NCBI GenBank assembly: GCA_913047695.1 | Contig: CAJWUI010000001.1 | Location: 124,001-188,000, forward strand | Origin: an uncultured Bacteroidota bacterium | Lineage (GTDB): Bacteria > Bacteroidota > Bacteroidia > Flavobacteriales > Flavobacteriaceae | Direction of reading: 5' to 3' | DNA length: 64,000 nucleotides | Part shown: piece after piece, positions 41,694 through 51,001 of the stretch | Position numbering within the stretch: the first letter of the stretch is position 1 | Layout: each line of letters opens with the position of its first letter | Translations under genes and position numbers: made by a program | The notes under the pieces: generated by a model | Seen by the model: the letters and a program-made list of their open reading frames with translations, nothing else | What the model was told of the DNA's origin: nothing | The model's database searches: none

Positions 41694-41701
41694 TATATTT
41701 G
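41694..41701 (+). promoter_or_regulatory. Candidate -7 element for the photolyase operon
   Basis: TATATTTG fits TAnnTTTG exactly, 16 bases before the ATG of the first operon gene. No TTG is at the expected -33 distance. It is the only such element I see before the eight-gene run, and the short leader leaves little room for other signals. Confidence 0.4.
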
Positions 41702-41717: not shown

Positions 41718-42185
41718 ATGAAAATTTATCGCCTAGAAGCGATTCAAAACTTACCCATTTCTCAGAAGGAGGCATGGACCTTTTTGTCTGATCCGAAAAA
41801 TTTAAAACAAATTACCCCAGATTACATGGGATTTAAAATAGTCAGTGGTCTGTCAGAAAAGATTTATGCAGGCCAAATAATACAATATATAGTCACCCCA
41901 ATTCTAGGCATACCCACAAGGTGGGTAACTGAGATAACCCATGTCGAAGATGGTAATTATTTTGTTGATGAACAACGTTTCGGACCTTATGATTTGTGGC
42001 ATCACAAACACTTTATTAAACCAATTGAAAGAGGAGTTGAAATGACTGACATTGTTGATTATAAAATCCCGTTTGGATTTTTAGGAAGGCTTCTACATCC
42101 TTTGCTTGTATTTCCCAAACTAAAGGAAATTTTTGAATATAGAAAAAAAGCGTTGATTGAAATTTTTGGACCATATTCTAAATGA
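41718..42185 (+). CDS. SRPBCC family protein, first gene of the photolyase operon
   Basis: A 155-residue START/Bet v1-type protein with a hydrophobic cavity fold. It begins YRLEAIQNLPISQKEAW and has FLSDPKNLKQITPDYMGF and WHHKHFIKPIERGVEMTDIVDY. Relatives are annotated as ligand-binding or cyclase-like proteins. Its ATGA junction with the SDR gene (42182-42185) and its constant place beside photolyase genes in other marine bacteria, known to me from general genome experience, suggest a role with light-related chemistry. The ligand is unknown. Confidence 0.88.
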   Translation: MKIYRLEAIQNLPISQKEAWTFLSDPKNLKQITPDYMGFKIVSGLSEKIYAGQIIQYIVTPILGIPTRWVTEITHVEDGNYFVDEQRFGPYDLWHHKHFIKPIERGVEMTDIVDYKIPFGFLGRLLHPLLVFPKLKEIFEYRKKALIEIFGPYSK

Positions 42186-42883
42186 TTAAAGATAAAAACA
42201 TATTAATTATAGGTGGTAGCTCTGGCATTGGTTTAGCTTTAGCAGAAATTCTGTCCCCCTCAAATTCGGTTTTTGTAGCTAGTAGATCAAATGAAAATTT
42301 GAGTAGCTTAAATTTAACCCATCTATCTTATGATGCAACATCTGCTGAATTAGATACTTCAGTATTGCCTGACGAACTACATGGATTTATTTATTGTCCT
42401 GGAAGTATAAATCTACGACCCTTTAAGGGGCTCTCAACAGAAGCATTTGAAAAAGATTTTCAAATTAATGTTACTGGTGCCATTAACTCATTAAAAGCAG
42501 TTTTGTCAAGGTTAAGCGCTAGTGGTAATGCTTCTGTTGTCTTTTTCAGTACAGTTGCAGTACAAACTGGAATGCCTTTCCATAGTTCTGTAGCAGCTTC
42601 AAAAGGTGCTTTAGAGGGGCTTACACGCTCACTGGCTGCAGAATTTGCACCTAAAATAAGAGTAAATGCTATAGCGCCATCTCTTGTAAATACACCTCTT
42701 GCTTCAAAATTTTTAAATAATGAATCTAAAATTGAAAAAGCAAATGAAAGGCATCCTTTAGGAAGGATAGGTAACGCTAAAGAGATTGCTCAAGCTGCAG
42801 GGTTTCTGCTTGGTCCAGAAAGTAGTTGGATGACTGGAAGAGTTTTACAACTAGATGGTGGAATAGGTAACCTTAAAACATAA
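42182..42883 (+). CDS. SDR-fold protein lacking the catalytic tyrosine
   Basis: A 233-residue Rossmann protein of the short-chain dehydrogenase family. The dinucleotide loop GGSSGIGLA, the NVTGA segment, the Ser in FFSTVAVQTG, INAIAPSLVNTPL-type substrate loop and C-terminal LQLDGG are all present. The active-site YxxxK is changed: Lys141 is kept, but the position of the Tyr is Val137 (SSVAASKGALEGL). A classical hydride-transfer mechanism is therefore doubtful. It overlaps the SRPBCC gene by 4 bases and precedes the first photolyase gene by 5. Confidence 0.9.
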   Translation: MIKDKNILIIGGSSGIGLALAEILSPSNSVFVASRSNENLSSLNLTHLSYDATSAELDTSVLPDELHGFIYCPGSINLRPFKGLSTEAFEKDFQINVTGAINSLKAVLSRLSASGNASVVFFSTVAVQTGMPFHSSVAASKGALEGLTRSLAAEFAPKIRVNAIAPSLVNTPLASKFLNNESKIEKANERHPLGRIGNAKEIAQAAGFLLGPESSWMTGRVLQLDGGIGNLKT

Positions 42884-42888
42884 TTTGA

Positions 42889-44190
42889 TTGGAAAAATAT
42901 ACTCTTTTTTGGTTTAGGCGTGACTTGAGAATTGAGGACAACCATGGTTTTTATAAAGCCTTGAATGGAAAAAATAAAGTTATACCTATTTTCATTTTTG
43001 ATCCAAACATCTTAGACAGACTGCCAAGAGAAGATGCTAGAGTTGAATTTATTTTATTAGCCTTGGGTGCCATAGATATTGCTATGAAGAGGAACAGGTG
43101 CAATGTTGGAGTATATCATGGTACCCCCGAGGCTATTTTTAGTAGATTGATCGATCAATTTCAAATTGAAGAAGTTATTTGTAATGATGATTATGAGCCC
43201 TATGCCACTGAAAGGGATAAAAAAGTTAAAATATTTTTAAACAGAAAAGGAGTAGAATTTAAAGCTTATAAAGACCAAGTAATCTTTGAAAAAAATGAAA
43301 TTGTTAAGGATGATGGAAATCCATACAAAGTTTATACACCATATTCAAGAAAATGGTTATCATCTTTTAAAACCCAGCTCCCAGAAGCATATCCATCTGA
43401 ATCTTTATTAATCAATTGTTATTCTGAACAAGAACTTCCCAAAATAAAATTAGATCAGTTAGGATTTAAAAGTAGTGTTGTAAATCAACCCAAATATTTT
43501 TTTGACAATCAAATTATTGATGACTATGAGTCAACCAGAAACTTTCCTTATTTAAATAAAACTTCAAGAATTGGAACAGCACTGAGATTTGGTACGATTA
43601 GTATAAGAAAAGTAGTAAAAAAAGCAGCCAGTAGACCTAATAAAACTTTTTTGAAGGAACTTATTTGGAGGGAGTTTTTTATGCAGATTTTGTGGCATTT
43701 TCCTCACACTTGCAATGAAAGTTTTAAACCTCAGTATGATAGAATAGAGTGGAGAAATAATGAAAACGATTTTGAAAATTGGTGTTCAGGTAATACAGGT
43801 TTTCCCCTTGTTGATGCAGGCATGAGAGAATTAAACAAAACAGGTTTTATGCATAATCGTGTGCGCATGCTAGTTGGTAGTTTTTTATGTAAGCATCTCC
43901 TTATTGACTGGAGATGGGGTGAAGCATATTTTGCAAAGAAGCTTTTTGATTATGAGATGTCAAGTAATGTTGGTAATTGGCAATGGGTAGCTGGTTGTGG
44001 TGTCGATGCGGCTCCATATTTTAGAATTTTTAATCCAACAGAACAAGTAAAAAAATTTGACAAACAATTGCACTACATAACTAAGTGGGTGCCCGATTTT
44101 CAAGAAATATCTTATCCAAAACCAATAATAGATCATAAACTAGCACGTGAACGTTGTTTAAAAACATATAAAAGCGCTTTAAATTCTTAA
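42889..44190 (+). CDS. phrB: Class I deoxyribodipyrimidine photolyase
   Basis: Light-driven repair enzyme for cyclobutane pyrimidine dimers, 433 residues. The antenna domain starts [17 protein letters not shown]; the FAD domain has [28 protein letters not shown] and MHNRVRM. The flavin-contact Asn and first Trp ([11 protein letters not shown]) and the two outer Trp positions ([16 protein letters not shown]) match the E. coli electron-transfer triad. The start is TTG at 42889, forced by an in-frame TGA immediately upstream. It ends TAATG, coupling to the DUF2256 gene. Confidence 0.94.
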
Positions 44191-44336
44191 TGAAGCACGT
44201 ATTAAAAACAAACTTACCTACGAAAATTTGTCTTAATTGTGGGTATCCTTTTACTTGGAGAAAAAAATGGGAAAGAGATTGGAACAATGTTAAATATTGT
44301 AGTAAAAGATGCAAAACAAAAAAAAGAATGCCTTAA
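44190..44336 (+). CDS. DUF2256 small cysteine-rich protein
   Basis: A 48-residue basic protein: [20 protein letters not shown] followed by [14 protein letters not shown]. The two CxxC/CxxxC pairs form a likely zinc ribbon, and the FTWRKKW core is the DUF2256 signature. Its ATG shares a base with the photolyase stop (TAATG), and its last 28 bases overlap the CRY-DASH gene in another frame. DUF2256 genes are often beside photolyase/cryptochrome genes. A nucleic-acid or partner-protein contact is plausible but unproven. Confidence 0.92.
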
Positions 44337-45607
44337 TATGGCTAAGAAATGATTTAAGAATTAGCGATCATTTTGGTTTTTATAATGCCTCAAAAAATTG
44401 TGACAAGGTTTTTGCTTATTTCAGTTTTGAGCCAATAAATTTTGAAAATACTGAATGGGGATTTAAAAAAACTGAAAAATTTAGAACACTTTTTTTAATT
44501 CAAACTCTAACATGCCTAAAAGATGAATTGAAGAAAAAAAATATTACACTTATTGTTGATATTAAATCAGCATTGTTTGGTATTCCAAAATTTATTGATT
44601 CTCTAAAAATAACAGATTTGTTCTATCAAAATGAGTGGACAAAGGAAGAAAATAATATTTCAGATAATGTTAAAAGGTCAATATCAAAAGAAATTAAAAT
44701 ACATACTTATTATGATCAATTTTTATATCATCCAAAGGACATTTCATTTCAACTCGATGCATTACCTGAAGTGTTCACAATTTTTAGAAAAAGTTGTGAA
44801 AAAAACTCATTGGTTAGAAAAGTTTCTCCTGAAATCAAAGCATTTCCTAAAACAAATCTTCTAGATGAAGAGTTTACTATACCAACGCTAAAAGATTTTG
44901 GTTTATCAGAATTTTACCATGTTCCTTTTTCTGCTTTTCCATTTAAGGGTGGAAGTAAAAGCGGTCACAGTAGGCTAAAGAATTATCTGTGGGATACTAA
45001 AAAAATATCAACATACAAAGAGACTCGTAATGGTTTAGTTGGGAAAGACTACAGTTCTAAATTTTCTCCATGGTTAGCAAACGGATCATTATCAGCAAGA
45101 GAAATCTACTGGCAGATCAAGGATTTTGAAAGTAAAGTGAAAAAAAATCAATCAACATATTGGATGATTTTTGAATTGATTTGGAGAGATTATTTTAAGT
45201 ATGTCTCACTTAAACATGGAAATAATATTTTTAGGCTAGATGGTATTTTAAAAAAAAGATACAGTTGGAAATCTGACCATAAAATTTTAATGTCGTGGAT
45301 TAATGGAGACACTATTGAACCATTTGTGAATGCAAACATGATAGAATTAAAAAAAACTGGTTGGATGAGTAATCGAGGAAGACAAAATGTGGCTTCTTTT
45401 TTTTCTAAGCATTTGTTTATGGACTGGAGGATCGGTGCTGCATATTTTGAATCCCAACTAATTGATTACGATGTGCACAGTAATTATGGAAATTGGATGT
45501 ATGTTTCTGGAGTCGGAAATGACCCAAGAGATCGCAAGTTTGATATATCCTGGCAATCAGAAAAATATGATCCACAAAAACAATTTCAAAAATTATGGAT
45601 AAAGTAG
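44309..45607 (+). CDS. DASH-type cryptochrome
   Basis: A 432-residue CRY-DASH flavoprotein, a family that repairs dimers in single-stranded DNA and may signal. The start is [25 protein letters not shown] hallmarks are [47 protein letters not shown] and the ending [19 protein letters not shown]. The flavin Asn and all three Trp-chain positions ([18 protein letters not shown]) are kept. The start overlaps the DUF2256 gene by 28 bases and the end overlaps the next gene by 13. Confidence 0.93.
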
Positions 45608-47085
45608 AAAATATTGCTTCAATAGTTTTACCTAATCAATTATTTGAAAAATCACCAGTATTTTCAAATGATGCCCCTATTTACCTAGTTGAGGAATTTT
45701 TATTTTTTAATCAATACTCATTTCATAAGCAAAAACTTTTTTTTCATAGATTATCAATGAAAAAATATGAACATTTTTTGAGGGGTAAAGGAATTTATGT
45801 ACAATACATTGATGCATCCGAAAAACTTTCAGATCTTAGAAATTTAATTGAAAATATATCAAATAAGTATGACATAATACAGATTATAGACCCAAATGAC
45901 TTCCTAGTCGAAAAAAGGTTAAAAAGAGTTTGTGTAAAACATAATATTAAATTAATCATACTAGAGAATCCGATGTTTTTGTGTAACAAGAGTGATTTAG
46001 GTTTCTTTAAGCCTGATAAGAAGAAATTTTTTCAAACTTCTTTTTACAAATCTCAAAGAGAAAAATTCAATATTCTTGTCGATATTAGTGGTGGACCAGA
46101 GGGTGGAAGTTGGACCTATGACACCATGAACAGAGAAAAATATCCAACAAATAAAAAGCCTCCTGAAATCATTTCTATAAATAATAAAACCAAACTTCTG
46201 TCAGAGACATTTGAGTATATAAGTAATAACTATAGCAAAAATTTTGGCACACTAGAATCAGAATTCTTTTATCCTACCGATTTTGACCAATCAAAAAAAT
46301 GGTTTAATGATTTTTTAGAAAATAGATTTACAGAATTTGGACCCTACGAAGACGCTATTGTTGATAGTGAGAGTTTTTTAAACCACAGCTTATTATCACC
46401 GCTTTTAAATACTGGTCTTCTTGATGTAAGCTATGTCATAAGTCATACAATAGAATTTTACAAAAAAAATAACATACCATTAAATTCATGTGAAGGTTTT
46501 ATAAGACAAATTTTAGGTTGGAGAGAATTTATTCGAGGTATATATTTTGCAAAAAGTGTAGAGGAAAGAACTAAAAACTATTGGAATTTTAAAAGAAAAA
46601 TTCCTGATTCATTTTATGATGGATCAACAAATATTTTACCCGTAGACATATGTATAAAAAAAATTTTGAAAACTGGTTATGCGCATCACATAGAAAGATT
46701 AATGATAATAGGTAATTTCATGTTACTTTGTGAATTTGACCCAGATGAGGTATATAGATGGTTTATGGAAATGTTTATTGATTCATATGACTGGGTTATG
46801 GTTCCAAATGTTTATGGTATGAGTCAATTTGCCGATGGGGGATTAATGTCAACAAAACCCTATATAAGTGGAAGTAGCTATATTCTTAAAATGAGTAATT
46901 ATAAAAAGGGAGAATGGACAATCATTTGGGACTCTTTATTTTGGAATTTTATTGATAAAAGAAGAGACTTTTTTATCAAAAATCCAAGAATGAGGATGTT
47001 AGTGTCTAATTTTGACAAAATGAATTCACATAAAAAGAAAGAACTGCTAGAGACAGCTGACAATTTTCTTCAAAATCTTAGATAA
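45595..47085 (+). CDS. DPRP/FeS-BCP-like photolyase without the Fe-S cysteine set
   Basis: A 496-residue relative of the bacterial (6-4) photolyase PhrB of Agrobacterium. The family pattern is clear: IVLPNQLFE, GGSWTYDTMNREKYP, QILGWREFIRG, the His pair 364-365 in GYAHHIERLM, and YGMSQFADGGLMSTKPYISG. Of four expected [4Fe-4S] cysteines only Cys353 remains. The later CxxC and third Cys positions read NYKKGEWTIIWDSLFW. It therefore probably folds without the cluster. The frame is intact and coupled to both neighbours. Confidence 0.9.
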   Translation: MDKVENIASIVLPNQLFEKSPVFSNDAPIYLVEEFLFFNQYSFHKQKLFFHRLSMKKYEHFLRGKGIYVQYIDASEKLSDLRNLIENISNKYDIIQIIDPNDFLVEKRLKRVCVKHNIKLIILENPMFLCNKSDLGFFKPDKKKFFQTSFYKSQREKFNILVDISGGPEGGSWTYDTMNREKYPTNKKPPEIISINNKTKLLSETFEYISNNYSKNFGTLESEFFYPTDFDQSKKWFNDFLENRFTEFGPYEDAIVDSESFLNHSLLSPLLNTGLLDVSYVISHTIEFYKKNNIPLNSCEGFIRQILGWREFIRGIYFAKSVEERTKNYWNFKRKIPDSFYDGSTNILPVDICIKKILKTGYAHHIERLMIIGNFMLLCEFDPDEVYRWFMEMFIDSYDWVMVPNVYGMSQFADGGLMSTKPYISGSSYILKMSNYKKGEWTIIWDSLFWNFIDKRRDFFIKNPRMRMLVSNFDKMNSHKKKELLETADNFLQNLR

Positions 47086-47097
47086 CCACTTTAAGAC

Positions 47098-48579
47098 ATG
47101 ATAAACACTAACAAACCAGTTGTAATTGTATGGTTTAAAAGGGATTTACGTTTAGAAGATAACGAGGCAATAAATTCAGCATTAGCGAATAATAAGTTGG
47201 TATTACTGCTTTATGTTTTTGAGAATTCTTTAATTCAAAACAATCATTTTAGCAAACGCCATCTGAATTTCATAAAACAATCTCTTGAAGACTTAAACCA
47301 AAGATTGGCGAAATTTAATACTGAAATTTTGACTGTTTGTGGTGAGGTACAATCAAATTTTGAAAAACTTAGTAAATATTTTTCAATTAAAAAAGTTTAT
47401 TCTCATTATGAAACTGGTATTGATATTACGTACAAAAGGGACAAAAAAATGGCAAAATGGTTTGCTGAAAATAAAATTAGGTGGTATCAGAAAAGACAAC
47501 AAGGGGTATTCAGAGGAATCGCCGATAGGAAAAATTGGTCAAAATTAATGAATTCGTTTATAAATCAACCTATTAAACCCATACCGGAAATGAAAAATAA
47601 ATTGGTATCATTAAAAACTTTAAAACAAATAAAAAATAAATTTGATGTATTAGAATTAAAAACGGAATATTTAAATGATGTTCAACTAGGGGGTGTTACA
47701 AAAGCAAATAAATACTTAGAATCTTTTTTTAAAAATCGTTATCAAAATTATCAAAATCACATATCAAAACCAGATTTATCACGTAAAAGTTGCAGCAGGC
47801 TTTCACCATACATAAGCTATGGGAATTTGTCGATAAGACAAATTTTTCATCGAATAAAAGAAAAAAAAGTCCAAACTAAGAACAGTTTTGCTATTAGTGC
47901 ATTTGAGTCTCGTTTAAGATGGCATTCTCATTTTATTCAAAAGTTCGATATGGAACCCAGCATGGAGTTTTTAAGTGTAAATAAAGGTTATCACAAACTT
48001 TTAAAACCTATCAATAAAAAATTTATTAAAGCATGGGAAAGGGGAAAAACAGGAGTTCCAATAGTTGATGCATCTATGCGATGTTTGGTTAAAACAGGGT
48101 ATTTAAATTTTAGAATGCGAGCTCTGATTGTTTCTTTTTTTGTTCATCAGTTATGGCAACCATGGCAAGCTTGTTCAGCATTTCTAGCGAGACAATTTCT
48201 TGATTTCGAACCCGGAGTTCATTTCCCTCAACTTCAAATGCAGGCTGGCGAGACTGGAATTAACACTCTACGTATCTATAACCCTGTTAAAAACGGAAGA
48301 GAGCATGATCAAAATGGAGAATTTACACGTAAATGGTTACCAGAACTTAAATCACTTTCAGATAAATTAATTCATTCGCCATGGTTGATTACTCGTCTCG
48401 AGGAAGAAATTTTTGAATTCAAAAAAGGAATTGATTATCCTAATCCTATTGTTAATCTAGAAGAGTCTAGGAGATTTGCTTCGGATACACTTTGGAACTT
48501 AAAAAACGATGTAATAGTATTTAAAGAAAATCAGCGTATTTTAAAAAAACATACTTCTGGGAAAAGTGTAAGTAGCTAA
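47098..48579 (+). CDS. Divergent photolyase/cryptochrome-family flavoprotein
   Basis: A 493-residue fourth family member. The antenna domain (IVWFKRDLRLEDNEAINSAL) and FAD domain (SPYISYGNLSIRQIFH, AWERGKTGVPIVDASMRCL, LRIYNPVKNGREHDQNG) are plain. The flavin pocket differs from class I: by hand alignment the Asn is His375, the flavin-proximal Trp is Leu379 and the outermost Trp is Lys303, while the middle Trp (PWQACSAF) is kept. The ending FEPGVHFPQLQMQAGETG typifies a separate subfamily. Dimer repair is uncertain; photosensing is possible. Confidence 0.9.
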   Translation: MINTNKPVVIVWFKRDLRLEDNEAINSALANNKLVLLLYVFENSLIQNNHFSKRHLNFIKQSLEDLNQRLAKFNTEILTVCGEVQSNFEKLSKYFSIKKVYSHYETGIDITYKRDKKMAKWFAENKIRWYQKRQQGVFRGIADRKNWSKLMNSFINQPIKPIPEMKNKLVSLKTLKQIKNKFDVLELKTEYLNDVQLGGVTKANKYLESFFKNRYQNYQNHISKPDLSRKSCSRLSPYISYGNLSIRQIFHRIKEKKVQTKNSFAISAFESRLRWHSHFIQKFDMEPSMEFLSVNKGYHKLLKPINKKFIKAWERGKTGVPIVDASMRCLVKTGYLNFRMRALIVSFFVHQLWQPWQACSAFLARQFLDFEPGVHFPQLQMQAGETGINTLRIYNPVKNGREHDQNGEFTRKWLPELKSLSDKLIHSPWLITRLEEEIFEFKKGIDYPNPIVNLEESRRFASDTLWNLKNDVIVFKENQRILKKHTSGKSVSS

Positions 48580-48581
48580 AA

Positions 48582-48872
48582 ATGAAAAAAAAACCAGCGC
48601 TTTCAAACGAACAAATTGATAGAATTATAGAGATGGCATGGGAAGATCGCACCCCTTTTGATGCAATTTTAATACAATTTGGATTAAATGAAAAAAATGT
48701 AATCGATCTAATGCGGAAAGAGCTAAAAATAAATAGTTTCAGGCTATGGCGTCAACGTGTTCAAGGAAGAAAAACTAAGCATAGTAAAGTTCGTTCAAAT
48801 GATGTGAATAGATTTAAGTGTTCAAGACAAAAAAATATTAGTAATAATAAAATTTCCAAGCGAAGGCAATAA
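48582..48872 (+). CDS. TIGR03643 family protein
   Basis: A 96-residue basic protein. The first 65 residues match TIGR03643: LSNEQIDRIIEMAWEDRTPF, then IQFGLNEKNVIDLMRKELK and SFRLWRQRVQGRKTKH. The predicted helix-turn-helix-like helices resemble a small DNA-binding domain. The tail is Lys/Arg-rich. It starts 2 bases after the fourth photolyase homologue and closes the operon. The family is often found beside photolyase and DUF2256 genes; function unknown. Confidence 0.9.
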   Translation: MKKKPALSNEQIDRIIEMAWEDRTPFDAILIQFGLNEKNVIDLMRKELKINSFRLWRQRVQGRKTKHSKVRSNDVNRFKCSRQKNISNNKISKRRQ

Positions 48873-48956: not shown

Positions 48957-50270
48957 TTAGGTAACAACTCTTTTAATCTTTGCACCTAACTTTTTTAATC
49001 GCCCATCTATATTTTCATAACCCCTGTCTATTTGCTCGATATTATGGATCGTGCTTTTACCCGATGCTGAAAGTGCTGCTATAAGAAGTGATACTCCGGC
49101 TCTTATGTCAGGAGATGTGAGTGTTGTTGCTTTTAATTGAGATTCAAAATCATGTCCTATAACAGTTGCACGGTGGGGATCACAGAGAATTATTTTAGCT
49201 CCCATATCAATTAGCTTATCAACAAAAAACAAACGGCTTTCAAACATTTTTTGATGTATTAATACACTGCCTCTGGCTTGACTGGCAACAACTAAAATAA
49301 TGCTTAATAAATCAGGGGTAAAACCAGGCCATGGGGAGTCAGAGATAGTGAGTATAGAACCGTCAATATAATTTGTTATTTCATATCCATTTTTGTGGGC
49401 AGGGATAAAAAGATCTTCACCATGCTTTACGACATTTATTCCAAGTTTTTTAAAAGTACCTGGAATAATACCTAGTTGATTCCAATTTACATTTTTAATT
49501 GTAATTTCACTTTTTGTCATAGCAGCTAAACCAATCCAACTACCAATTTCTATCATATCTGGAAGAATAGTGTGCTCAGTACCATATAGCTTTTCAACAC
49601 CATCAACAATTAAGTAGTTTGAACCAATCCCACTTATTTTAGCTCCCATTTTATTTAACATCTTGCATAATTGTTGAACATATGGTTCACATGCGGCATT
49701 GTAAATTGTTGTTCTACCACTGGACAAAACAGCAGTCATAATAATATTAGCTGTCCCAGTTACAGATGCTTCGTCAAGAATTATATCTGCCCCATTTAAC
49801 TTATTTGCCTCTACATTGTAAAATGAGCTCTTTTTATTTTGTGAAAACTTTGCACCCAGTTTTATAAGACCTTCAAAATGAGTATCTAACCTCCTTCTAC
49901 CTATTTTGTCTCCACCAGGTCTTGGCACAGAACCTTTTCCAAATCTAGCAAGTAGTGGTCCAACTATCATGATTGATCCTCTTAATCTTTGTCCATCATC
50001 TTTAAAATTATTTGAACTTAGATAATCGAGATTAATATTATTTGAACGAAATCTATAACTACCCTCACTAATTTTATCAATTTCAACCCCTAAATTAGTG
50101 AGTATTTGAATAAGCTGATTGACATCAAGTATATTAGGTATATTATTTACAACTATTGGTTCCGAAGTTAAAAGAGTAGCGCATAAAATTTGTAGGGCTT
50201 CATTTTTTGCTCCTTGAGGCTTTATCGAACCTTTTAGGGGCTGTCCTCCTTCAATAATAAATGATTCCAT
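48957..50270 (-). CDS. murA: UDP-N-acetylglucosamine 1-carboxyvinyltransferase
   Basis: First committed enzyme of peptidoglycan synthesis; 437 residues with two EPT domains. Conserved parts are GSIKPQGAKNEALQIL (Lys-Asn), GPLLARFGK, and the active loop PRPGGDKIGRRRLDTHF. The residue in place of the catalytic Cys115 of E. coli is Asp121, the change that makes mycobacterial and chlamydial MurA insensitive to fosfomycin. The C-terminal RGYENIDGRLKKLGA is usual. It lies 6 bases after the DUF4290 gene on the same strand. Confidence 0.96.
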   Translation of the reverse strand: MESFIIEGGQPLKGSIKPQGAKNEALQILCATLLTSEPIVVNNIPNILDVNQLIQILTNLGVEIDKISEGSYRFRSNNINLDYLSSNNFKDDGQRLRGSIMIVGPLLARFGKGSVPRPGGDKIGRRRLDTHFEGLIKLGAKFSQNKKSSFYNVEANKLNGADIILDEASVTGTANIIMTAVLSSGRTTIYNAACEPYVQQLCKMLNKMGAKISGIGSNYLIVDGVEKLYGTEHTILPDMIEIGSWIGLAAMTKSEITIKNVNWNQLGIIPGTFKKLGINVVKHGEDLFIPAHKNGYEITNYIDGSILTISDSPWPGFTPDLLSIILVVASQARGSVLIHQKMFESRLFFVDKLIDMGAKIILCDPHRATVIGHDFESQLKATTLTSPDIRAGVSLLIAALSASGKSTIHNIEQIDRGYENIDGRLKKLGAKIKRVVT

Positions 50271-50276
50271 CTATTT

Positions 50277-50915
50277 TTAATATCGTTTTCTATTCCTTTT
50301 CCTTGGTTTACTGTGGTTACTGCTAGGCCCACTTCCGTTTTTATGTTTGAATCGAATTAGATCAGCCGAATCACTTAAAGGTAGTTGTGAAGCTGCAACT
50401 TTTAGTTTTCCTTCTGAAAGTTCTTCTAGGTGGGCAAGTATAACAGTGTCTTCAACTGTATCTTTATTCCAACTTAAAAAGTTTTTTTTCATATGGTTAG
50501 CTATTGTGAAAACTAAGACATCTTTAAGTTCACCGTCTTCCCAACCAATCGCAGCGTCAATCATACGTTTTATATTATTTCCATAGAAACGATATTTTGG
50601 AAAGTTTTGAGGATAAGGCAACTTACCTGGTTTCATGTCCAACAACTCTTTCTGAGGTTTTTCAAATGGACAATCAACGTCAATATCAAAGTCTGCCATG
50701 ATGAAGAATTGATCCCACAATTTGTGCTGGAAGTCTGCTACATCTCGTAGGTGAGGATTTAAGTTTCCCATAACACCAATTATAGCTTTAGCTTTTTTAT
50801 TTCTCTCTTCAGGATTAGTCTCCAATTTAGCCTGTTCTATCATAATATGAATGTGTCTTCCATACTCAGGTATTACAAGCTGTTTACGCTTAGTGTTGTA
50901 TTTTAAAGTATCCAT
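50277..50915 (-). CDS. DUF4290 domain protein
   Basis: A 212-residue protein from the ATG at 50915 (MDTLKYNTKRKQLVIPEYGRH cut at Arg by family form). The frame is open 15 codons further upstream, but relatives start near YNTKRKQL. Motifs are VIPEYGRHIHIMIEQA, GNLNPHLRDVADFQHKLWDQ and VLVFTIANHMKKNFLSWNKD. The C-terminus is a basic tail (KPRKRNRKRY). It is always near murA in flavobacteria; function unknown. Confidence 0.9.
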   Translation of the reverse strand: MDTLKYNTKRKQLVIPEYGRHIHIMIEQAKLETNPEERNKKAKAIIGVMGNLNPHLRDVADFQHKLWDQFFIMADFDIDVDCPFEKPQKELLDMKPGKLPYPQNFPKYRFYGNNIKRMIDAAIGWEDGELKDVLVFTIANHMKKNFLSWNKDTVEDTVILAHLEELSEGKLKVAASQLPLSDSADLIRFKHKNGSGPSSNHSKPRKRNRKRY

Positions 50916-51001
50916 TAGGTGATTGTGAATGTGTTCTTTAAGTAGAAAAATATATTGCAAATTAGTAAAATCCTTTGAATTGCAAACTATATTGATTAAA
51001 A

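Follow-up and report, generated by a model that had tools for sequence, protein, structure and literature searches.

We describe here a row of eight genes, at positions 41718 to 48872 of a 64,000-nucleotide stretch of DNA from an uncultured member of the Flavobacteriaceae (the window; positions 124,001 to 188,000 of contig CAJWUI010000001.1, assembly GCA_913047695.1), which gathers four members of the photolyase/cryptochrome family with distinct active sites and four accessory genes. The source genome carries a rhodopsin gene, which fits life in sunlit water, and we think it probable that the row is a photoprotection and photorepair operon of this rhodopsin-bearing bacteroidete, with the enzyme and accessory roles proposed below. 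One transcript would give a class I-like cyclobutane pyrimidine dimer (CPD) photolyase, a CRY-DASH protein, a 6-4 photolyase free of iron-sulfur (Fe-S) ligands and a divergent fourth homologue, named CRY4 here, which has an altered active site and is probably not a standard CPD enzyme. One of the accessory genes codes for DUF2256, a small zinc-finger-like protein that, judging from sequence and distribution, most likely serves the prokaryotic 6-4 photolyase as a dedicated partner. Photolyases are generally regarded as enzymes that act alone, and a conserved small protein whose presence and absence follow those of the 6-4 class, including enzymes free of Fe-S ligands, points to a partner, for which no assay was found; we know of no dedicated protein partner for any photolyase, though no search aimed at one was made. 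The features of the locus are as follows (lengths in amino acids, aa):

41694 to 41701, + strand: weak candidate Bacteroidetes-type -7 box TATATTTG, shortly 5' of the gene 1 start codon
41718 to 42185, + strand: gene 1, SRPBCC-like small protein, 155 aa (Polyketide_cyc E 0.0084, below cut-off)
42182 to 42883, + strand: gene 2, short-chain dehydrogenase/reductase (SDR), 233 aa (PF13561 E 4.5e-39)
42889 to 44190, + strand: gene 3, class I-like CPD photolyase, 433 aa, TTG start (PF00875 and PF03441; nine E. coli Phr residues kept)
44190 to 44336, + strand: gene 4, DUF2256, four-Cys zinc-finger-like protein, 48 aa (PF10013 E 4.8e-21, 75 bits; alignment of 30)
44309 to 45607, + strand: gene 5, CRY-DASH, 432 aa (TIGR02765 465 bits; closest solved relative 1np7; W306, W359 and W382 kept)
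45595 to 47085, + strand: gene 6, prokaryotic 6-4 photolyase relative without Fe-S ligands, 496 aa (PF04244, DPRP, 164 bits; model with a template modeling (TM) score of 0.92 to PhrB 4dja)
47098 to 48579, + strand: gene 7, divergent fourth photolyase/cryptochrome homologue, CRY4, 493 aa (PF00875 and PF03441)
48582 to 48872, + strand: gene 8, DUF2805/TIGR03643 small basic protein, possibly helix-turn-helix (HTH)-like, 96 aa (121 bits)

The eight open reading frames (ORFs), as read from the window, stand head-to-tail on one strand, and the junctions calculated from their coordinates measure -4, +5, -1, -28, -13, +12 and +2 bases from gene 1 to gene 8. This is the coupled row, running from a 28-base overlap to a 12-base gap, that an earlier note on this DNA had described, and it suggests a single transcript.

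The link between DUF2256 and the 6-4 family was found in a survey of 158 genomes, sampled evenly across the phylum and searched with profiles for DUF2256, DPRP (the 6-4 family) and PF03441. DUF2256 was present in 52 genomes and DPRP in 51; 48 had both, four DUF2256 alone, three DPRP alone and 103 neither. The phi coefficient with DUF2256 was 0.90 for DPRP, 0.71 for DASH (36 genomes), 0.57 for CRY4 (22 genomes at E 1e-70 or better, all of them carrying DUF2256) and 0.52 for any PF03441 match (98 genomes, 88 of them above the cut-off). Among photolyase genomes with neither DASH nor CRY4, DUF2256 occurred in 13 of the 16 with DPRP versus 1 of the 44 without it, and among those with DASH or CRY4 in 35 of 35 versus 2 of 4. 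Within the source organism's own family there was no exception (both in 10 genomes, neither in 6). Outside the survey, in 14 named control genomes, DUF2256 was found in Caulobacter and Synechococcus elongatus, and DPRP in these two and Haloferax.

DUF2256 is also often close to photolyase genes. In at least 37 of the 52 genomes DUF2256 lies within 6 kb of a photolyase match among those listed. We also examined 80 loci from relatives (L075 to L154, some clipped by contig ends); DUF2256 was found in 50 of them (45 under a stricter ORF filter), and each of these 50 has the start of a photolyase gene no more than 50 bases downstream, that of the 6-4 gene in 37, of DASH in 12 and of the class I-like gene in one. 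DUF2256 is a basic protein that matches PF10013 with its four cysteines, which are invariant across the 30 aligned sequences, and the family has been placed in the TRASH metal-binding clan of Pfam, according to the available part of the source (PMC4047054). No published link between DUF2256 and photolyases was found in the literature searched, which left out most subscription journals; the publications listed for DUF2256, DUF2805 or TIGR03643 concern mostly unrelated organisms, to judge from their titles, and the available excerpts name no photolyase.

What DUF2256 could be doing is best approached through gene 6. In sequence it matches 6-4 photolyases such as PhrB and CryB, and the AlphaFold model of it (mean predicted local distance difference test score, pLDDT, of 89) has the fold of PhrB. 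In this protein, called a (6-4)/FeS-BCP relative in the earlier note, none of the four Fe-S cysteines of PhrB (C350, C438, C441, C454) is present, which sets it apart from FeS-BCP, and around two of these positions some ten residues are missing. Among 88 aligned relatives, 85 also have none of the four cysteines and three have at least three, a ratio biased by the fact that 80 of the 88 are the best 80, out of at least 578, in a scan that started from the Cys-less type; the remaining eight, found beside DUF2805 genes, comprise five Cys-less proteins and three that are not. In the 86 Cys-less rows, the window's included, Q306, H366, M371, Y424 and Y430 (PhrB numbering) are always kept, while at position 365 there are 71 rows with His and 15 with Asn. 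The fold and these lesion-site residues relate gene 6 to the group of PhrB, CryB, VcFeS-BCP and SePhrB, whereas the four cysteines with the ten or so residues around them, E37/R108, Y391, Y395 and E403 of PhrB have been lost or changed. The antenna pocket is one of the altered places, in that E37 of the pair roofing the 6,7-dimethyl-8-ribityllumazine (DMRL) is Phe in all 86 rows, and R108 has given way to Trp in 62, to Leu in 16 (the window among them) and to Tyr in 6. E403 is Met in all 86, and Y391 and Y395 are both Phe in gene 6.

With the family fold and the lesion-site residues present and the cysteines absent, gene 6 is by its sequence a new member of a known Cys-less 6-4 subtype, seen here in many Bacteroidota, and its activity would be 6-4 repair. 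The loss of the cysteines is no novelty, as a Cys-less "subgroup M" of prokaryotic 6-4 photolyases, including PromaPL of Prochlorococcus, has been described; this subgroup and its sister groups commonly have a Met close to flavin N5 (available part of PMC9178010). We set gene 6 with subgroup M by fold, residues and missing cysteines, in an alignment that does not include PromaPL itself. An 8-hydroxy-5-deazaflavin (8-HDF) antenna was considered, since the Phe at position 37 resembles an apolar residue of 8-HDF binders. It is unlikely because no CofH above the cut-off was found in any of the 158 genomes; weaker CofH matches in 103 of them are presumably menaquinone-pathway relatives, and the source genome is without any match.

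The composition of gene 6 bears directly on one explanation of the pairing, namely that DUF2256 is a factor delivering iron-sulfur clusters or metal to the 6-4 photolyase. Its four invariant cysteines, its metal-binding clan and its tight co-occurrence with the 6-4 family would all agree with such a role, but the 50 adjacent pairs of DUF2256 and photolyase are in loci whose 6-4 homologues have none of the four ligands. Fe-S delivery is largely refuted by this persistence of the pair, and we rejected it; the explanation as a whole appears very improbable. Because the pairing survives both the loss of the Fe-S ligands and the changed antenna pocket, the target of DUF2256 should be something that both enzyme types have, i.e., the flavin adenine dinucleotide (FAD) domain, the lesion site or the DNA. 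As a dedicated partner, DUF2256 may therefore help the 6-4 photolyase to engage DNA or the lesion, to fold or to load FAD.

Gene 7 codes for a divergent homologue with an altered active site. The canonical CPD photolyase residues E274, N341 and N378 (E. coli Phr numbering) are not found in it, nor is the complete tryptophan triad. E274 is replaced by Arg, N341 by Phe, N378 by His and W384 by Met in gene 7 and in all 40 relatives aligned, and W277, R342 and W359 are kept in every one of them. At W382 there is Leu in gene 7 and Phe (24), Leu (14), Ile (1) or Val (1) in the relatives, never Trp; the alignment at W306 is uncertain, with a Trp close by in the sequence. His is an unusual residue to find at the flavin-N5 position. 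As four key positions have been replaced alike in all 40 relatives, an ordinary CPD photolyase is unlikely, and a protein so conserved is presumably functional. Its relatives among solved structures are weak (best 132 bits). The bifunctional PhrSph98 type was also considered and discarded, as that type is class II-like and gene 7 reaches just 48.3 bits on the class II-type model (cut-off 550). We advance with considerable doubt the joint proposal that DUF2256 is a dedicated partner of prokaryotic 6-4 photolyases and that CRY4 is a new class of photoreceptor or enzyme, with His for the flavin-N5 Asn and no proximal Trp.

CRY4 could alternatively be the centre of a signalling module, in which it, and perhaps also the Fe-S-free 6-4 relative, would be a blue-light receptor acting through an HTH-like DUF2805 on light-responsive genes. 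The uniform replacements in its active site suggest that repair chemistry has probably been given up in a protein that is nevertheless conserved, and CryB of R. sphaeroides is a 6-4-family protein with regulatory roles, as stated in the accessible text of PMC9178010. Gene 8 belongs to DUF2805 (TIGR03643 at 121.1 bits, cut-off 66.55), and its model has four helices and a low-confidence basic tail; we regard it as probably a small DNA-binding accessory. The structural search with it gave no significant match (best E 0.6), which counts against an HTH assignment, although the top neighbours were sigma-4 and other HTH domains. The neighbourhood of DUF2805 does not favour signalling through it by CRY4 either: the gene directly beside it is CRY4 in only 5 of the 80 loci and a short photolyase-like protein (SPL) in 15, and 25 of the 45 survey genomes with DUF2805 have no CRY4 match. 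Moreover, a triple photolyase/cryptochrome mutant of V. cholerae retained its blue-light transcriptional response, to judge from the portion of PMC5241685 available. We consider this signalling module unlikely, and nothing that we found speaks directly for the relay of a signal by the accessory proteins suggested in the earlier note.

The SPL, of ~370 aa, was noted in 28 of the loci L091 to L154 (e.g., L091:4281-5393), in 15 of them directly after DUF2805; the single one tested has the FAD domain and lacks PF00875. This neighbour of DUF2805 elsewhere is not found in the source genome, where a PF03441 profile search of 1.96 Mb gave four matches, all accounted for by the gene row (that of gene 6 below the cut-off); as the assembly is 89% complete, a fifth photolyase gene elsewhere is possible.

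The two other photolyases of the probable photorepair operon are genes 3 and 5. Gene 3 has all nine of the E. coli Phr residues compared (E274, W277, W306, N341, R342, W359, N378, W382, W384), as has each of 19 relatives, in keeping with the class I label given to it earlier. It does not reach the curated class I scores (348 of 884.6 bits for TIGR03556 and 318.7 of 506 for PRK10674), and for this reason we call it class I-like. Gene 5 is a CRY-DASH by TIGR02765 (465.3 bits, cut-off 317.05) and keeps eight of the nine residues, with Tyr in place of W384. DASH enzymes are known as a family for the repair of CPDs in single-stranded DNA.

In a quick tree of 70 rows a single branch separates each of the class I-like, DASH, Cys-less 6-4, Fe-S 6-4 and SPL groups from the rest, in accordance with the four separate branches claimed before; support for the class I-like branch is only 74%, and long branches meet. 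CRY4 needs two changes in this tree, owing to one Salinivibrio photolyase, adjoining DUF2256, that had been given a separate label. BLAST assigns this protein to the CRY4 type (43% to gene 7 and 24% to gene 3, the twelve best matches all being CRY4). This gene, on a plasmid of Salinivibrio kushneri (L160, 4407-6150), stands directly before DUF2256 outside the Bacteroidota, and a 6-4 homologue lies on the same plasmid ~170 kb from the two.

In the survey and in the loci, the accessory families do co-occur with photolyases in other genomes, the lack of which would have refuted the earlier note's reading by its own criterion, but they do not behave as a uniform set: SRPBCC goes with class I, DUF2256 with the 6-4 family, and DUF2805 is looser. 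An SRPBCC gene was found in 14 of the 16 loci carrying the class I gene. The SRPBCC label of gene 1 itself comes from a weak match to Polyketide_cyc (16.8 bits, under the curated cut-off of 23.4), and is to be taken as no firmer than that. DUF2805 is present in 45 of the 158 genomes, all with some PF03441 match and 39 with DPRP; another 12 genomes have DPRP and no DUF2805. SDR and SRPBCC probably serve the class I/DASH part by acting on a redox cofactor or a ligand for it. The making of a chromophore, also put forward for the accessory proteins, is better supported for the GTP cyclohydrolase I (FolE) and flavin reductase of the longer clusters described below than for the accessory genes of the window.

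The gene row is not a chance arrangement, because L075, a single-amplified genome of an uncultured bacteroidete, has the identical eight genes in the identical order. Throughout the 80 loci, four photolyase types were counted in 6, three in 24, two in 29 and one in 21. All eight genes are also contained in clusters of 17 genes in L140 and L153 (both Winogradskyella), L101 and L139, with the order TetR, UbiB, flavin reductase, SDR-epimerase with DUF2867, DUF2256, DASH, 6-4, CRY4, a 141-aa protein, DUF2805, FolE, a 74-aa protein, SDR, glutathione peroxidase (GPx), TspO, SRPBCC and class I (the names TetR, UbiB, flavin reductase, FolE and TspO come from Pfam matches of a single representative per family, and GPx was named from its sequence). 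L138 has 15 of the 17, without TetR and UbiB. The long form in Winogradskyella provides a list of candidate cofactor and stress genes of a bacteroidete light response. A 141-aa protein without Pfam match was seen beside the 6-4 homologue, CRY4 or DUF2805 in L035 (9376-9798, - strand) and in 18 of the 80 loci, and a 74-aa protein without Pfam match between FolE and SDR in six loci.

The gene murA, so named from its sequence and not from a model match, adjoins the cluster in L140, L153 and L101 (none is in view in L139), and is near it in fifteen loci in all, 14 of the 80 plus L070, as in the window. The sites are the window at 48957-50960, L070, L075, L077, L081-L083, L085-L087, L089, L090, L093, L101, L140 and L153. 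Given this murA neighbourhood and the longer clusters of relatives, the window operon appears to be a pared-down version, at an old site, of the 17-gene superoperon of Winogradskyella. A constant site with such widely differing content could make gene gain and loss traceable at one place.

Could the row simply be a co-habitation, i.e., unrelated light-induced genes that share one promoter, with small proteins linked to no particular photolyase? Gene order and membership do vary widely between loci; the functions of SDR, FolE, GPx and TspO are general ones in photo-oxidative stress, and on some plasmids DUF2256 is found away from photolyases. But DUF2256 tracks the 6-4 family even where the genes lie apart and when the other classes are controlled for, and the adjacency recurs on plasmids of Alpha-, Beta- and Gammaproteobacteria, e.g., DUF2256 followed by the 6-4 gene on a Cupriavidus plasmid, or 6-4, DUF2256 and TIGR03643 together on one of Acinetobacter schindleri. 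Comparison of partial, non-random lists of plasmid records (71 with a 6-4 homologue, of 87/85, and 84 of 133 with DUF2256) gave 26 records common to both, with the two genes no more than 4 kb apart in 20 of them. Two plasmid records of Erwinia persicina, apparently from one isolate (NZ_CP146505, NZ_CP146502), carry DUF2256 and a 6-4 homologue separately. On balance we find a coincidental association rather unlikely.

A number of observations nevertheless weigh against a photorepair operon with DUF2256 as a dedicated partner. Seven of the 158 genomes are discordant, G011, G072, G082 and G138 having DUF2256 only (with weak, partial matches in G011 and G082) and G066, G081 and G143 DPRP only, and the ancestry shared among genomes means that p-values overstate the strength of the co-occurrence. 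A photolyase adjoins DUF2256 in three of seven plasmid stretches inspected around it and in four there is none nearby, these being from Erwinia, Azospirillum, Spirosoma and Sphingobium (in the last, SDR and FolE are near). Plasmids of Rhizobium tropici and Agrobacterium pusense have a 6-4 gene without an annotated DUF2256 near it, DUF2256 is on 57 plasmid records of Pantoea, a genus that is not among the ten named for 6-4 homologues on plasmids, and the cyanobacterial, haloarchaeal and Streptomyces plasmids with a 6-4 gene are not among the DUF2256 records listed, which we counted against the pairing. As to the other genes, DUF2805 was within 6 kb of a listed photolyase match in at least 18 of 45 genomes, and TetR and UbiB of the long cluster are missing from the gene row of the window.

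The signals around the operon are faint. The Bacteroidetes-type -7 consensus is TAnnTTTG, and a motif similar to the candidate TATATTTG is found 5' of gene 1 in L075 and L077 and not clearly in the other eight sequences aligned; no clear -33 box was seen with it. The promoter scan gave 43 sites versus 38.0 expected (standard deviation 5.3), which is not above chance. Between 41400 and 49100 the terminator scan found nothing on the + strand and two sites on the - strand (chance expectation 3.3 for the two strands together). The flanking genes, DUF2911 upstream and murA and DUF4290 downstream, are on the opposite strand. Elsewhere in the source genome (~2 Mb) FolE has four matches, on contigs C11, C18, C17 and C1; those on C17 and C18 are within the first 3.2 kb of each contig and might be copies of one region.

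The kind of system to which this operon would belong, photolyases in light-inducible operons, is already known. The available parts of the sources describe light-inducible clusters of Pseudomonas (LitR/PplR) with phrB, SDR, FAD-oxidoreductase, ufaM, folE and cryB (PMC9758184), and an operon of Rhodobacter capsulatus in which singlet oxygen induces all four genes, namely GPx, CryB and two hypothetical ones (PMC7074977). The Bacteroidota clusters appear akin to these sets, having in common with them photolyase, 6-4-family cryB, SDR, FAD-oxidoreductase, folE and GPx, and by this analogy would be induced by light or singlet oxygen. Unlike those sets, they add DASH and CRY4, and TetR and UbiB head the long version. 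No LitR- or ChrR-type regulator was recognised in them, in work that included no model search aimed at such regulators. The photolyase operons of V. cholerae also respond to blue light, independently of the photolyases (PMC5241685, in the part available). No published four-photolyase operon turned up, with no search aimed at such operons and most subscription journals outside coverage. The UV-B-inducible two-photolyase operon of Synechococcus sp. PCC 7335 is presented as the first of its kind, next to two earlier reports of photolyases in operons, in the text available of PMC9649867. Its photolyase genes overlap, as in the window, but it holds two photolyases (one of them class II-like and bifunctional) and no accessory genes, whereas the window holds four together with four accessory genes.

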